Origin: Erinaceus europaeus
Taxonomy: Eukaryota; Chordata; Mammalia; Eulipotyphla; Erinaceidae
Length of the DNA: 64,000 nucleotides
Assembly (NCBI RefSeq): GCF_950295315.1
Contig: NC_080171.1
Span: 113,342,093 to 113,406,092, forward strand
Reading direction: 5' to 3'
Positions within the stretch are counted from its first letter, which is position 1; every line of letters begins with the position of its first letter. Positions 9,011 to 63,810 of this stretch are shown in pieces. The notes under the pieces are model-generated. The model was not told the DNA's origin. It searched no databases and saw nothing but the letters and a program-made list of their open reading frames with translations. The translations under genes and the position numbers were made by a program.

Positions 9011-9119
9011 TCGACCAAGTGCGCAGCTTTGAGAGGGGTGCACATGGAACACCCACCAGATCAGCTGAATCAACCCTGGCGATCAATGGGGTGACAGATG
9101 CCGTAGCCAGATCGCCCTC

Positions 9120-31504: not shown

Positions 31505-32129
31505 TCTTCTTCTAGCGTTTGCCCTTCTTCCGTAGCCAGTCAACAGCATCAGGTTGAGCCTGATGTAAAGTTTCGAGACCTCCTTTGAATCTGGAGAGGT
31601 GGCAGTCGTTGACTATGTGGGTCATAGTCTGTCTGGAGCCGCAGGGGCAGTTCGGGTCGTCTCTGGCTCCCCAGCGATGGAACATAGCAGCGCACCGGCC
31701 ATGGCCTGTTCGATAGCGATTGAGGAGGGCCCAATCATAACGTGCTAGGTCAAAGCCGGGTTGATGCTTGCAGGGGTCTGTGATGAGGTGTTTGTTCTTG
31801 ACCTCAGCTGACTGCCAACTCTGTTTCCAAGAGTCTGGAACAGAGAAGTTCAGTGTAGGCGTAGGGGACCAGATTGGGTGACGAGACGTCAAGCATTGGA
31901 CAGGGTGGGCGAAGATATCCGCGTATATTGGCAGGTCCGGTCGAGCGTAGACGTGGGAAATGAACTTAGATGATGCCACATCCCGACGAATATCTGGCGG
32001 GGCGATGTTGCTAAGAACTGGCAGCCATGGAACCGGGGTGGAACGGATGGTTCCAGAAATTATCCTCATGGAGGAGTATAATTTGGAATCGACCAAGTGG
32101 ACATGGGGGCTACGGAACCATACTGGGGC
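31505..32129 (-). mobile_element. Vingi-clade LINE, 5' truncated, exact boundaries
   Basis: A 625-bp insertion flanked by a perfect 10-bp duplication, tgtacataat, at 31495-31504 and 32130-32139. On the minus strand it ends aaacgctagaagaag, so the tail is GAA repeats, not poly(A). Only the last third of the LINE is present. Severe 5' truncation plus a duplication is the mark of target-primed reverse transcription. Confidence 0.9.
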
Positions 32130-32147
32130 TGTACATAATGAAAACAA
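31512..32147 (-). pseudogene. C-terminal fragment of Vingi-like reverse transcriptase protein
   Basis: 211-codon frame. The first six codons (MFSLCT) come from flanking DNA beyond the insertion boundary at 32129; the other 205 are the C-terminus of the LINE protein. It retains the Cys motif CPCGSRQTMTHIVNDC (C-x-C-x7-H-x4-C) and ends LRKKGKR. It differs from the copy at 60975 by about 8 residues in 205, so both inserted recently. The reverse transcriptase motifs and endonuclease are absent, so it cannot act by itself. Confidence 0.85.
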
Positions 32148-32309
32148 TAATCAGAGTTTCCAATTTACATCTGCTCAGGATGCCAAGACCCACTCCCAGA
32201 ATTCTTCTTCTTCAAAGAGAGTTTTCCTGGGTGCTGACCCTGTCAGACCCATCGTTCTATATTTGAGTGGGGTGTGGCAGTAGTCCACTGAGTGGACCCC
32301 ATATCTAGC

Positions 32310-42976: not shown

Positions 42977-43717
42977 GCAAGTAACAAGCCTCTGTGTAAC
43001 TAACTGTAGGACTTTTGCTTCCCTTCTTTGCCTTTTGATCTGGTTCTAACTTCTTACATTACTGTAATATTAGTAGTGGAGTGGACACACTAGTCTTGTT
43101 CCCAATCACAGGGGAATCTTCAGTCTTCACCTCCACATACATGTTAGCTGCAAACTGTTTGTAGGCTTATACATCAAATTGAAGAAGTTTCCTTCTAATC
43201 CTTGTTTTCTAAGAGTTTATAGTATGAATGAATGTTTTTTTATGCATTTTTTGTATCAATAGATAAGATCACGTGAAATTTCTCCTTTATTCTGCTGATG
43301 AAATAGAGTTACACTGACTTTTTTTTAAAAAAAAAAATATGGAGCTAAACCTTTGTCCTGAGAAGAAACCTTATTTGATCTTGGTGTGTGATTCTTTTCA
43401 TATATTGATGAATTCTATTTTCACTAATACTTTTAGAGGATTTCTGTACATGAGGAATATAGTTTCTTTTATGTCTAGTATGTCTGCTTTCGGTGTCCAT
43501 TTTATGGATCGTTCTGCTGTGATCATTCTTACATATGTCTTTTGGTGACTATCTAAGTGTATGCCTGTTAGAATTATTGAGTCATAGAGTATTTGTAGAT
43601 TCAGATTAGCAACTGTTCTGAATGCTTTTCCAAAAGGATTTTTTTTTTAGTTTTTTTTTTTAATTTTCTTTTTTTTTTTATTGGAGAATGAATGTTTTAC
43701 ATTCAACAGTAAGTACA

Positions 43718-45393
43718 GACGATTCGACTTCCGGAGGCGGAGCTACGAGCAGCAGATTGCTTTCTCTCCTCTCCTCTCCTCTCCCGGATCAACTAGGAAT
43801 ACCAAAGGAGACCACCCGGACCGAAACAAGACAGGACTAGAATGACCACAGGAACCCAGTAAATCACCCGTGAGTACAAACACGCGTGGCTGGTGACAGA
43901 GAGGAGAGAGGGGCCTAAGGAGAGATTAAGTGACTGCTAACAGTTCAACAGTTTATCAGTGGAAACACCACCTCCAGTCTGCTCCACCAACAAGGGGACA
44001 GCTGAAGGGAGGAAAGGACTCCCCAGAGACTCACCAAGTACAACTCTGAGTCTCCATTGCTACTACCCTCAGAATCTGGAGCAGCAACAGGGAGGGACAC
44101 CAGGGCACAGAGATCTAACCGGGAAACTCAGGAGAAGACCTATACCTCGGTGGCATAGCTGAAGGGCTGTGAAAGTCTCTTTGCATAACCACTGGATTAT
44201 CTCTGCCACACCCTGCTTTATCTCTTGGTCAGGAGTCATTGATTAAGCCAAGAAGCCTATTGATAGTTTAAAAGCCCTCAGGCTACCATAGCCTACAGGG
44301 GAAAAAAAAAAAAGGCTTTTACACCACTGAACTCCAACTCAGGGATTGAAAAAACTGTTAACTTATATAAAATGGTTAAAACAACAAGAAAAAATAATGG
44401 AGACTCGAACCAGAACAAGAGTCCAGCTAAAAGTCCTCCAGAGGGCGAAGCACAAAACAACGAGTTCAACATCCAAACATTAGCTAAGGAAATAATAACA
44501 GGAGTGAGTAAAGAATTTGAAAAAATTGTAATCAGAACTGCAGGAACAACAAATGAGAATATGGAAGAAAATTCTAATAATCTCATGGTTATTAGAGAGC
44601 TGAAAGCTGAAATTGCTGAGCTAAGAAGGCAACTAGCTGAACAAGCTAAAACAGTATCAGAGCAGGGCAACAAAATAGATGAACTCCAGAAAGCAGTAGA
44701 GGGCAGAGAGAATAGAATCAATGAGGCTGAAGACAGAATTAGCAAGATTGAGGATGAATTAGAGACAACTAAAAAAGAAGTAAGAGATCTCAAAAAGAGA
44801 TTAAGAGATGCTGAAAACAACAACAGAGTCCTATGGGATGACTTCAAAAGAAACAATATACACATTATTGGCTTACCAGAGGAAGAAAGAGAAGGGGAGG
44901 AAGAAAGCGTTCTCCAGGCCATAATAGCTGAAAATTTCTCTAGTCTAGACAACACCAAAGACATAAAGATTCAAGAAACCCAGAGGGTCCCAAACAGAAT
45001 TAACCCAGACCTAAAGACACCAAGACATGTCATACTTAGATTGGAAAGGAATAAGGATAAAGAAAGGATCCTCAAGGCTGCAAGAGAAAAACAAAGAGTC
45101 ACCTACAAAGGAAAACCCATAAGATTAGCAGCAGACTTCTCCATACAAACACTACAGGCCAGAAGAGAATGGCAAGATATCTGTCGAGTGCTCAATGAGA
45201 AAGGCTTTCAGCCAAGAATACTATATCCTGCTAGATTGTCATTCAGACTAGATGGAAGCATCAAAACCTTCTCAGACAAGCAACAGTTGAAGGAAGCAAC
45301 CATCACCAAGCCTGCCTTGAAAGAAGTTCTGAAAGGTTTCCTATAAACAACCAGACCACCACAAATAGAACATATATCAAAACACTCTAAAAC
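43718..45393 (+). mobile_element. Half-L1: L1 5' UTR plus intact ORF1, no ORF2
   Basis: A 1,676-bp insertion bounded by a perfect 15-bp duplication, tcaacagtaagtaca, at 43703-43717 and 45394-45408. It holds about 650 bases of 5' UTR (starting gacgattcgacttccggagg), ORF1, and only 47 bases after the ORF1 stop, ending actctaaaac. Endonuclease and reverse transcriptase are wholly absent, as in HAL1 (half-L1) elements. The almost missing A-tail suggests premature 3' processing or internal priming of an L1 RNA. It must have been mobilised by another L1. Confidence 0.85.
44372..45346 (+). CDS. L1 ORF1 protein (RNA-binding chaperone), intact
   Basis: 324 codons without a stop or frameshift; mammalian L1 ORF1p is usually about 340. 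Order: basic, disordered N-terminus (MVKTTRKNN); heptad-rich coiled coil at about residues 70-150, expected to trimerise; RRM-like domain from about 160 (NNIHIIGLPEEE, then PRHVILRLERNKDKERILKA); C-terminal domain from about 250 (QARREWQDICRVL, FQPRILYPARLSF, IKTFSDKQQLKEA). The family coats L1 RNA in cytoplasmic particles and acts as a nucleic-acid chaperone. The start ATG follows cttatataaa and is the first in frame. Expression would depend on the 5' UTR promoter lying directly upstream. No ORF2 follows. Confidence 0.95.
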   Translation: MVKTTRKNNGDSNQNKSPAKSPPEGEAQNNEFNIQTLAKEIITGVSKEFEKIVIRTAGTTNENMEENSNNLMVIRELKAEIAELRRQLAEQAKTVSEQGNKIDELQKAVEGRENRINEAEDRISKIEDELETTKKEVRDLKKRLRDAENNNRVLWDDFKRNNIHIIGLPEEEREGEEESVLQAIIAENFSSLDNTKDIKIQETQRVPNRINPDLKTPRHVILRLERNKDKERILKAAREKQRVTYKGKPIRLAADFSIQTLQARREWQDICRVLNEKGFQPRILYPARLSFRLDGSIKTFSDKQQLKEATITKPALKEVLKGFL

Positions 45394-46604
45394 TCAACAG
45401 TAAGTACAATAGTTTGTACATGTATAATATTCCCCAGTTTCCCATATAACAATACAACCTCCACTAGGTCCTCTGAATTCTTCTTGGACCTGTACTCTCC
45501 CCACCCACCCACCCCAGAGTCTTTTACTTTGGTGCGATACGCCAATTCCAGTTCAGGTTCTACTTATGTTTTCTTTCTGATCTTGTTTTTCAACTTCGAC
45601 CTGAGAGTGAGATCATCCCATATTCATCCTTCTGTTTCTGACTTATTTCACTTAACATGAATTTTTCAAGGTCCTTCCAAGATCAGCTGAAAACGGTGAA
45701 GTCACCATTTTTTACAGCTGAGTAGTATTCCATTGTGTATATATACCACAACTTGCTCAGCCACTCATCTGTTGTTGGACACCTGGGTTGCTTCCAGGTT
45801 TTGGCTTAAAAGGATTTTTTATAATCAACAGCCACTCCTCTGAGCAGTATGTAAAAATTCAGTTGTTTTACAGACTCATTAATACTTGGAGTATATGTGT
45901 TTTTGTTGGTACTTTTAGCCATTCTACTAGATGGCAGACCATCATGCTTTTAAATTGGTTTTTCTTGAGCTTAGACATTTTTCATATACTAATTTGAACT
46001 GTACCTTTTTGTAATATGTCTTTTCAAACCATTAACCCATTTTCCTATTGATTTTCTATATTTTTTCTTAACTGTTTGCAGATTTTCTCTGTATATTCCG
46101 GATACGAGTATTTCACTGGAAATAACTATTTCCTGCTGTTCTGTGCTTGTCTCTCCACTCCTGTGATTATGTACTCTGGAGGCCAGAAGTCCATAATTTT
46201 AATATTATCAAATATACTAACCCAGTGTGACTTTTCTGATATCTTCTGTTAAACTTATGGCTCTCTAGCTGGCCTATGTTATCGCTTGTTCCTGAAAACC
46301 CTCTGAGGATACTGGTGATTGTTACAGTTTTCTTTCTCCTTTGAAGCCTCTATAGTCTTTGTTTCTTTCATTCTTGTCCACACAAATTAGCCTTTAGTTT
46401 CTTTATAACCAAACAATTGCTGTACCCAATGGGGCTGTGAGAGAATGCTTTTTGAATAGCCATAAAATACAAACATACTTTTATTGTCCCAGTATGATAA
46501 AATAGACTGGTTTATATGAGTGGGTCTTATGAGTGTTTTAACAGGACTGATCTGTATGTTTCCACAGTCTCTTGCATCAGGGGTTGCTAGGGACCAGTTC
46601 TTTC

Positions 46605-47221: not shown

Positions 47222-47511
47222 GTCAGGCTGTAGCGCAGTGGGTTAAGCTTACATGGTGTGAAGTGTAAGAATCCCAGTTCGAGCCCCCGGCTTCACCTAC
47301 AGGGGAGTCGCTTCACACGCTGTGAAGCAGGTCTGCAGGTGTCTATCTTTCTCTCCCCCCTCTCTGTTTTCCCCTTCTCTCTCCATTTCTCTCTGTCCTA
47401 TTCAACAACAACTACAGCAATGGCAACAATAATAATAACCACAACAATGATAAAAACAAGGGTAACAAAAAAGGAAAATAAATAAATATTTTTAAAAATA
47501 AAAAAAAAAAA
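47222..47511 (+). mobile_element. Type I SINE
   Basis: Sense ggctgtagcgcagtgggtta, cccagttcgagcccccggct, CAA-rich stretch and a long A-tail. Confidence 0.9.
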
Positions 47512-60974: not shown

Positions 60975-62267
60975 CTAGCGTTTGCCCTTCTTCCGTAGCC
61001 AGTCAACAGCATCAGGTTGAGCCTGATGTAAAGTTTCGAGACCTCCTTTGAATCTGGAGAGGTGGCAGTCGTTGACTATGTGGGCCATAGTCTGTCTGGA
61101 GCCGCAGGGGCAGTTCGGGTCGTCTCTGGCTCCCCAGCGATGGAACATAGCGGCACACCGGCCATGGCCTTTTCGATAGCGATTGAGGAGGGCCCAATCA
61201 TAACGTGCTAGGTCAAAGCCGGGTTGACGCTCGCAGGGGTCTGTGATGAGGTGTTTGTTCTTTACCTCAGCTGACTGCCAGCTCTGTTTCCAAGAGACTG
61301 GAACAGAGAAGTTCAGTGTAGGCGTAGGGGACCAGATTGGGTGACGAGATGTCAAGCGTTGGACAGGGTGGGTGAAGATATCCGCGTATATTGGCAGGTC
61401 CGGTCGAGCGTAGACGTGGGAAATGAACTTAGATGATGCCGCATCCCGACGAATATCTGGCGGGGCGATGTTGCTAAGAACTGGCAGCCATGGAACCGGG
61501 GTGGAACGGATGGTTCCAGAAATGATCCTCATGGAGGAATATAATTTGGAATCGACCAAGTGGACATGAGGGCTACGGAACCATACTGGGGCACAGTATT
61601 CTGCAGTGGAATAGCATAATGCCAGAGATGATGATCGTAGTGTGGAAGCGCTCGCGCCCCATGAGGAGCTGGCCAGTCTTGCAATGATGTGATTCCTCGC
61701 GCCCACCTTTGCTGCAGTTTTTATGAGATGTTTGTGAAATGACAGAGTGCGATCGAGAGTAACGCCAAGATAGACTGGCTGGGCTTCATGCCGGATTCTC
61801 GTATCGCCAAGCTGCACATTAAGCTCACGTGAGGCCGAGGCATGGTGTAGATGGAAAACAGATGATACCGTTTTAGCAGTGCTAGGAATTAGTCGCCATT
61901 TTTTATAGTAATCAGATATAAGAGACATGTCTTTTGTGAGTGTTTCCTCGAGGATGTCGAACTTTGATGCCTGAGTTGCACAGCAGATGTCATTGGCGTA
62001 GATGAACTTCCTTGAAGAAGTTTCTGGGAGGTCATTGATGTAAATATTAAATAGCGTAGGAGCCAGAACAGAGCCCTGGGGGAGGCCACTTGAGACAAGT
62101 CTCCATCTGCTAGACTTGTCACCCAGATGTACCCGGAATCTTCTGTTTTGGAGAAGAAACGATATAGTGTTGGCCACCCAATGGAGGCAGGCATCTTGAG
62201 ATCTTGACCAGGAGACCACGGTGCCAGACCGTGTCATAGGCTGCTGTGAGATCAACAAAGACAGCAC
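60975..62267 (-). pseudogene. Vingi-like reverse transcriptase, C-terminal part
   Basis: 430-codon frame. About the first 30 codons are out of register with the neighbouring frame and are not native. Then come VANTISFLLQNRRFRV, motif B (SSGLPQGSVLAPTLFNIYI, residues 59-77), motif C as YAND (90-93) instead of YADD, LGVTLDRTLSFHKHL, and the Cys motif CPCGSRQTMAHIVNDC (386-401), ending LRKKGKR. The first catalytic Asp of the YADD box is Asn here, so polymerase activity is unlikely. The enzyme class copies LINE RNA at a nicked target in the nucleus. Confidence 0.85.
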
Positions 62268-63210
62268 CCGTCTTTAAATTCTTCTGGAATCCATTTTCAA
62301 TGTAAGTTGAGAGGGCCAGGGCTTGTTCGCAGGTAGATCTTCCTGGGCGGAAACCAGCCTGGGCGGGTGATAGGAATTTCTCTGTAAGATGAGAAATACA
62401 TGATAGAAGCAGCCTCTCAAGGAGTCTGTAACACACGGAGAGGAGAGAAATTGATCTATAGCTGGCGGCCAGTGTTGGGTCTTTCTTTGGTTTCAAAACC
62501 GCTATAATCTTCACACGACGCCAAACTTTGGGCATAGACTCAGATTCCAAGATGTGGGACAGGAATGAAGCAAGCCACTTCTTTGCCACGGGGCCCAGGT
62601 TAAGAATGAGTTCTGGGGTGATGTTATCATAGCCAGCAGCTGTTCCCGGTTTAACCCTCTTCAAAGCGTCTTCCAGTTCAGACAGTGTAAAGGGAGAAAG
62701 TTTTGGAGATGGACAAGATAACCGGAAGTGGGATGACCACTCATGGGAAATTTCTCTTTTCCAGACTGGGTTGATCTTAGCACGTCCAACTTGAGTTAGG
62801 TGACTGGCCACTGAGTTTGGAGATACGGGAGGATGGGAGACGGGAGGGGGTTGGCTACCGGCACCCAGTCTGTGAAGAAGCTTCCAGGCCTTCCTACTTG
62901 AGTGGGTGAAGTTCAGACTTTCCGTGAGTTGTTGCCAGCGGGCTTGGCGTGCTGCATCCAGGGAGGCAATGAGATGGTCAGCCACATCTGGGTCACCTGA
63001 CTCATCATACTGCTTTAGTAGTTGCTCGCATTCAGTATCAAGACAAGGCGTATAGTTAGCACGTCTCCCACGAGGAATGGCTTGGGAAGCTGCTTTGAAG
63101 ATGGCATGGCGGAAGCGCCTGTAGGAATCTGGTGGGCAGGTGTGGGAACATGTTTGCGCAGGACCACGGCAGTGTGAGGTCTCACTTAGTTGAGACTGTG
63201 AGTCAATCAT
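62119..63210 (-). pseudogene. Vingi-like protein, linker and N-terminal reverse transcriptase part
   Basis: 363-codon frame. It opens in the linker between endonuclease and reverse transcriptase (YRRFRHAIFKAASQAIPRG; LNFTHSSRKAWKLLHRLG). The finger motifs follow (KPGTAAGYDNITPEL; SYRSISLLSVCYRLLERLL), then QAGFRPGRS and motif A, FVDLTAAYD (318-326). After about residue 337 it leaves the LINE frame, which continues in the 60975-62267 frame; a frameshift therefore lies near 62180-62200. The start codon shown is not native. Confidence 0.85.
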
Positions 63211-63810
63211 GGGGCATTTCTCAGTTCCTCACTTCAGTATATAATCCTGCCCCTGGAACCTTGTGGTTTGAGGACTAGATGAGAGAAGGGGTGTTTTAGG
63301 TCACAGGCATTAGCAAGTCTGAGAAGTGAGTTTATCCTATTTTGGTCTTGCTGTGTTTTTCCTAAGCAGCTCACTGGCATTTGGGGGTCACTCCAGGTGT
63401 ACAACAGAAGGTAACTACATCTTCACCCTGGGGAGAATTCAGAAAAGAACTAATACTCTAAAATGACAGTTTTATGCTGAATTAATATTTTGCAAGAGTA
63501 GTCAGTAAAGCTTATAATTAAGAACTAATCCCTTCATTTATTACGAGACCTGATAAGATATATCATTAACTACTAAATGAGTTAGGTTTGTTCCTCTTCA
63601 ATATAACCAGGTATGCCAACACAAATCCCCTGTTCCTGAAATGACACCATGAGAACACTATGAACAACGACACAAGATGAAACATGGGTTGACAGGAAGA
63701 GAAATACACAGAGCATTCCTTAAGAAGCAAGAATATAAATGACTTTTTAATCATACTGATGAATGTGACAGTCTTTAAAGATAGTTTACATTTGAGAAAC
63801 ATTAAGAAGC
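63211..63810. other. No gene or repeat recognised
   Basis: Unassigned flank of the Vingi insertion. Confidence 0.4.

Follow-up and report, generated by a model that had tools for sequence, protein, structure and literature searches.

The window analysed here, a 64,000-nucleotide stretch of the genome of the hedgehog Erinaceus europaeus, contains an L1 insert of 1,676 bp (Table 1). In line with a preliminary description of this DNA, the insert includes a 5' UTR and lies between perfect copies of the 15-bp sequence TCAACAGTAAGTACA: the two copies are identical at 15/15 positions, and the bases adjoining them differ on either side, making the perfect repeat exactly 15 bp long. Two further elements of that description also hold. 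Firstly, ORF1 is intact, with 324 codons, and 47 bases separate its stop codon from the 3' junction (45393/45394). Secondly, the A-tail that had been described as nearly absent is indeed missing; the insert ends with AAAAC directly at the duplication, with neither an A-tail nor an A-run at the junction.

Table 1. Features of the L1 insert, its target-site duplication and the older L1 into which it was inserted (window positions).
Feature	Position	Strand	Basis
13-bp duplication AAAAGGATTTTTT of older host L1, left copy	43632..43644	+	
5'-truncated, antisense 3' end of the older host L1, interrupted by the insert	43645..45807	-	
5' copy of target-site duplication TCAACAGTAAGTACA	43703..43717	+	repeat comparison
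L1 insert, 5'-complete or nearly so, 3'-truncated, tailless	43718..45393	+	junctions and kin alignments
L1 5' UTR with 13 CpG; begins where other full-length copies begin, or close to it	43718..44371	+	
Intact L1 ORF1, 324 codons	44372..45346	+	reading frame, Pfam/PDB matches
Truncated ORF1-ORF2 spacer, ending 9 nt short of where kin have the ORF2 ATG	45347..45393	+	
3' copy of target-site duplication, first six bases TCAACA	45394..45408	+	
13-bp duplication AAAAGGATTTTTT of older host L1, right copy	45808..45820	+	

Several other elements were observed in the window. Two overlapping open reading frames with reverse transcriptase matches (RVT_1) lie on the minus strand at 60975–63228, and a shorter piece on the same strand (31512–32150) has a nearly identical C-terminus and no Pfam match. 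By eye, these frames do not look L1-like and may resemble the Vingi elements reported for hedgehogs. A fragment of 7SK RNA (9033–9113, minus strand; model positions 13–93) scores above the Rfam cut-off, and no target duplication was found for this tailless copy.

The element into which the L1 was inserted is itself an L1 3' end, 84–93% identical to the 3' ends of six of the seven L1 loci compared. A related L1 3' end in the window (39016–38787, minus strand) contains a single, uninterrupted, exact copy of the 15-mer, and hence constitutes an empty site. This empty paralogous site, together with the host's own 13-bp duplication, indicates that insertion occurred into an older L1, and that the 15-bp repeat genuinely arose as a target duplication. 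The window contains five matches to the 15-mer at no more than two mismatches (shuffle mean 0.20, largest 2). Two of these are the junction copies, and the remaining three, the empty site among them, are in regions of homology to the 3' end of the host L1; the 15-mer recurs because insertion was into an L1 3' end. Since assembly of young L1s is difficult, it is conceivable that an L1 was joined to the wrong flank. However, such an error would not yield a 15-bp target duplication at both junctions plus an empty paralogous site, and we regard it as scarcely credible.

The identity of the insert was established by protein and nucleotide searches. The ORF1 product matches Pfam families PF02994 (85 bits; cut-off 22.4) and PF17490 (81.9 bits; cut-off 22.2), covering the RRM and C-terminal domains, and also matches L1 ORF1p in the PDB (chain E: 1.2e-56). 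A homologue search returned 3,228 proteins; the 120 listed are 39–55% identical, and the species-named ones among them are all from mammals. No relatives outside the hedgehog genome were found in the viral and genome contigs searched, or by tblastn in plasmids and phages. Within the window's own genome (2.72 Gb, 1,172 contigs) there are many copies at 97–99% identity; here the query was the insert minus its last 13 bases, and the 40 copies scored, out of 2,472 candidates, include that of the window. With both ORF1p domains and near-identical copies that continue into the ORF2 start sequence, the insert is assigned to LINE-1 (ORF1 half).

Alignments to the 39 other scored copies begin at insert position 1–4 (14 copies), 9–16 (six copies), 38 (one copy) or 128–138 (18 copies). 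The possibility that the late-starting copies have a different 5' end was ruled out: when six of the 18 were realigned locally, all six matched the insert upstream, from position 1, 9, 28 or 34, showing that the late starts are an effect of the search alignment. In five of the six close kin used for dating, GATTCGACTTCCGG, which runs from insert position 4 onward, adjoins unrelated flanks (for the sixth, an exact-word look-up gave no match). In another full-length copy, L014, a 17-bp duplication starts at the same 5' end; for L009–L012, no duplication was detected by script. Judged from these alignments, the insert is 5'-complete or nearly so.

At the other end, all 20 of the best-scoring other copies in the hedgehog genome run past the junction point into the ORF2 start sequence. 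Reading across this point, 14 of the 20 are exactly AAAAC-TCTACAAGAATGG; beyond it, 18 have TCTACA and all 20 have TC. The same continuation is found in (i) L002–L008 (7/7; selected with a query that contained TCAACA, which most of them read), (ii) the 30 first-listed copies of the last 22 nt of the insert (30/30), and (iii) the copies of this 22-mer in which the next base is not T (24/24). In these copy sets, the continuation was read for ~70–120 nt past the junction point. Since the kin copies all continue into the ORF2 start sequence, the insert by this comparison ends within the ORF1-ORF2 spacer, a point that had been raised as a question in the preliminary description; the ORF2 ATG would follow 9 nt further on. 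Because all 20 best-scoring kin also read TC past the junction point, the true duplication is 13–15 bp long, and the insert 1,676–1,678 bp.

Some variation was seen within the L1 spacer. It occurs in at least two forms, TCAACAAGAATGG (L002, L005–L008) and TCTACAAGAATGG (L070–L089), which are perhaps subfamily markers. Additionally, two single L1 copies (L099 and L105) each carry a short tandem duplication inside the spacer, just before ORF2.

The last 22 nt of the insert have 4,551 exact copies in the hedgehog genome, and these were examined for further ends at the same position. In 24 copies the next base is not T, and all of these are ordinary L1s that differ by base changes or a small indel. 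A second pattern (next base T, followed by departure from the L1) gave 12 copies including the window's own; nine of the 11 others are L1s with small indels or changes. Two L1 copies, L107 (G000:C94:394019) and L108 (G000:C101:12401198), break off no more than 3 nt away from the same position in the spacer. No duplication was detected around either by a test that does recover the window's own, and both may be deletions or rearrangements (L108 is also without much of ORF1). By arithmetic, the two patterns together catch ~89% of random flanks and miss ~11%, with copies of a changed 22-mer falling outside the count. Within these 22-mer-based searches of the window's own genome, no second copy with both this exact end and a duplication was found. 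A search for other insertions with this end, proposed in the preliminary description, thus yields two further breaks, but neither has a detectable duplication. Two pattern searches for ORF1 ends followed by 16 A within 30 nt gave zero hits, a count with no denominator or positive control of its own; ends elsewhere in the spacer are covered solely by these A-run searches.

The preliminary description had read the locus as a HAL1-like unit, and ORF1-only anatomy with a flanking duplication speaks for a HAL1-like family or premature polyadenylation of an L1 RNA. A candidate signal for the latter, AATAGA (45364), lies 24 nt upstream of the insert's 3' end, which is a usual distance, and AATAGA can serve as a weak polyadenylation signal. 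Yet the insert lacks an A-tail, and the two A-run searches found no A-tailed ORF1-only end (again with no denominator or positive control). A family is further disfavoured by the failure to find a second copy with this end and a duplication, and by the entry of all 20 best-scoring copies into the ORF2 start sequence. We consider this pair of explanations highly improbable; on the results of these searches, the insert looks like a single L1 event, and not a member of a HAL1-like family.

Comparison with six close kin gives an approximate age. The insert has six private substitutions, three at sites where all six kin agree and three where five of the six do. (The script listed 13 private differences, seven of which were dropped as kin spacer bases past the insert end; 48 further variable columns, shared or ambiguous, were left out of the private count.) Relative to the closest copy compared, there are 10 differences in 1,673 sites. 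At a mammalian substitution rate of ~2.2e-9 per site per year, 3–6 changes in 1,676 bp correspond to roughly one to two million years, part of which possibly elapsed in the source element. The few private substitutions, the duplication and the empty paralogous site together support the earlier view of a recent insertion event, as opposed to an old deletion.

A normal, full-length L1 insertion could also have lost ORF2, the 3' UTR and the tail later, through a deletion ending exactly at the 3' copy of the duplication. TC is common to the L1 spacer and the duplication, and could have aided such an event; L107 and L108, possibly deletions or rearrangements themselves, are also interrupted here and show no detectable duplication. 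On the other hand, of several thousand possible places, the right end of the deletion would have to coincide exactly with the start of the duplication, and the young age of the insert (3–6 private substitutions) leaves little time for a second event. A later deletion is, in our estimation, quite improbable.

The open frame of ORF1 is no sign of function, because all six close kin have the same open, 324-codon ORF1, with identical start and stop points. Each of the three private changes in ORF1 is nonsynonymous (one rests on five of the six kin), as three unconstrained changes often would be; these three changes, compared across six kin, give no sign of selection on the ORF1 of this copy. The insert carries its own 5' UTR and intact ORF1 but lacks a 3' end from which it could be copied further; on the same strand, the nearest downstream AATAAA is at 47477, ~2 kb away. 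It is most likely a dead-end copy.

The lack of an A-run at the end of the insert implies that reverse transcription did not begin on poly(A). We think it probable that target-primed reverse transcription instead began inside a full-length L1 RNA, in a single retrotransposition event. The proposed steps are as follows: (i) the L1 endonuclease would nick the bottom strand near ...CTGTT(GA)/ATGT, (ii) the freed 3' end (...TACTGTTGA) would pair with UCUACA just before the ORF2 start codon, rather than with the poly(A) tail, and (iii) reverse transcription would proceed from UCUACA to the 5' end of the full-length RNA, such that ORF2, the 3' UTR and the tail would never be copied.

The target (TCAACAG) and the kin RNA (UCUACAA) agree exactly at the first 2 nt, and at 5/6 positions overall. 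Considering sites on both strands of the window, 6.5% match at the first two positions, 0.55% match at 5/6 or more, and 0.38% do both; the 6-nt span was chosen after the fact. The nick site, TC/AACA (or T/TCAACA), is a poor fit to the L1 endonuclease motif TT/AAAA, and TC/AACAGTA agrees by eye with the consensus for tailless insertions, TT/WAAAAWW (PMC5322556), at six of nine positions. In the predicted fold of the closest kin RNA (500 nt), the priming site is not unusually open (48th percentile). A perfect 6-nt match between target and RNA was initially entertained and dropped: the query itself contained TCAACA, and among the 20 best-scoring kin, 18 read TCTACA and none TCAACA.

The preliminary description had instead pointed to an RNA cut short after ORF1. 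Here the template would be a truncated, non-polyadenylated L1 RNA, cleaved in the ORF1-ORF2 spacer and joined to the nick with little or no pairing. Such a template gives the same 5'-complete, tailless structure with a duplication, and the exact target match is only 2 nt, seen at 6.5% of window sites. However, a truncated RNA does not predict any match between target and RNA past the end, and a 5/6 match with the first two positions exact is found at only 0.38% of window sites. In addition, truncated 5S and U2 intermediates were sought in PMC5322556, where the available part of the paper reports none convincing. A truncated template, as first suggested, is the main rival reading and in our view unlikely; internal priming on a full-length RNA explains the tailless end and the target-RNA match somewhat better.

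Insertions of a comparable kind have been described. The closest are the tailless retropseudogenes (Noll et al. 2015, PMC5322556, citing Schmitz et al. 2004). That work covers 2,402 human tailless retropseudogenes with duplications and argues for internal priming; tailless copies are known for many RNAs, with target-RNA matches of 2–18 nt. The hedgehog insert resembles them in its L1-type duplication, 3' truncation inside the RNA, lack of an A-tail and, possibly, a target-RNA match of a few nt by the 3' end. It differs in that L1 RNA itself served as template, with 1.7 kb copied as far as the 5' end; in addition, the exact match, at 2 nt, is among the shortest in the published range, and the nick is poor against the published consensus. 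Being 3' truncated, free of oligo(A) and flanked by a discernible target duplication, the insert most likely belongs with tailless L1-made insertions, a known kind.

HAL1 (half-L1; Bao and Jurka 2010, as summarized in PMC5322556) likewise encodes ORF1 only and is flanked by duplications, but is described as poly(A)-tailed and present in nearly 2,100 copies in human, whereas the hedgehog insert is tailless and no second copy was found. PMC5223499 mentions de novo L1 inserts without a tail, and its authors call their cause undefined. These inserts, too, were apparently not started on a poly(A) tail; they are experimental, from NER-deficient cells, and have very long duplications, whereas the present case is a natural germline copy with an ordinary duplication of 13–15 bp. 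Duplications of full-length L1s specific to human and chimpanzee peak at 14–16 bp (PMC2912911), and the same paper describes tailless tRNA copies with microhomology at their 3' junctions. According to PMC5135761, the poly(A) tail can be bypassed in retrotransposition. In the available parts of two papers, PMC13174262 and PMC12026660 (African hedgehog), nothing was found on ORF1-only or internally primed L1s, and our search of open-licence papers found no report of a 5'-complete, tailless, ORF1-only L1.

If such events recur, they would provide one route to HAL1s, although nothing here shows recurrence. In the fullest form of this idea, internal priming before the ORF2 start would repeatedly allow L1 to shed ORF2 while keeping its promoter and ORF1, and spacer-ending copies, as loci that express ORF1 and lack ORF2, would be the missing first step of HAL1 families, later capturing a downstream poly(A) signal; we consider this very unlikely. 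The locus nevertheless illustrates that finding an intact ORF1 with no ORF2 does not by itself point to a half-L1 family. If the proposed mechanism is correct, the insert is a clean, natural case in which L1 copied its own RNA starting from an internal site and left an ordinary duplication, and would mean that the A-tail is not strictly needed even for L1 RNA.
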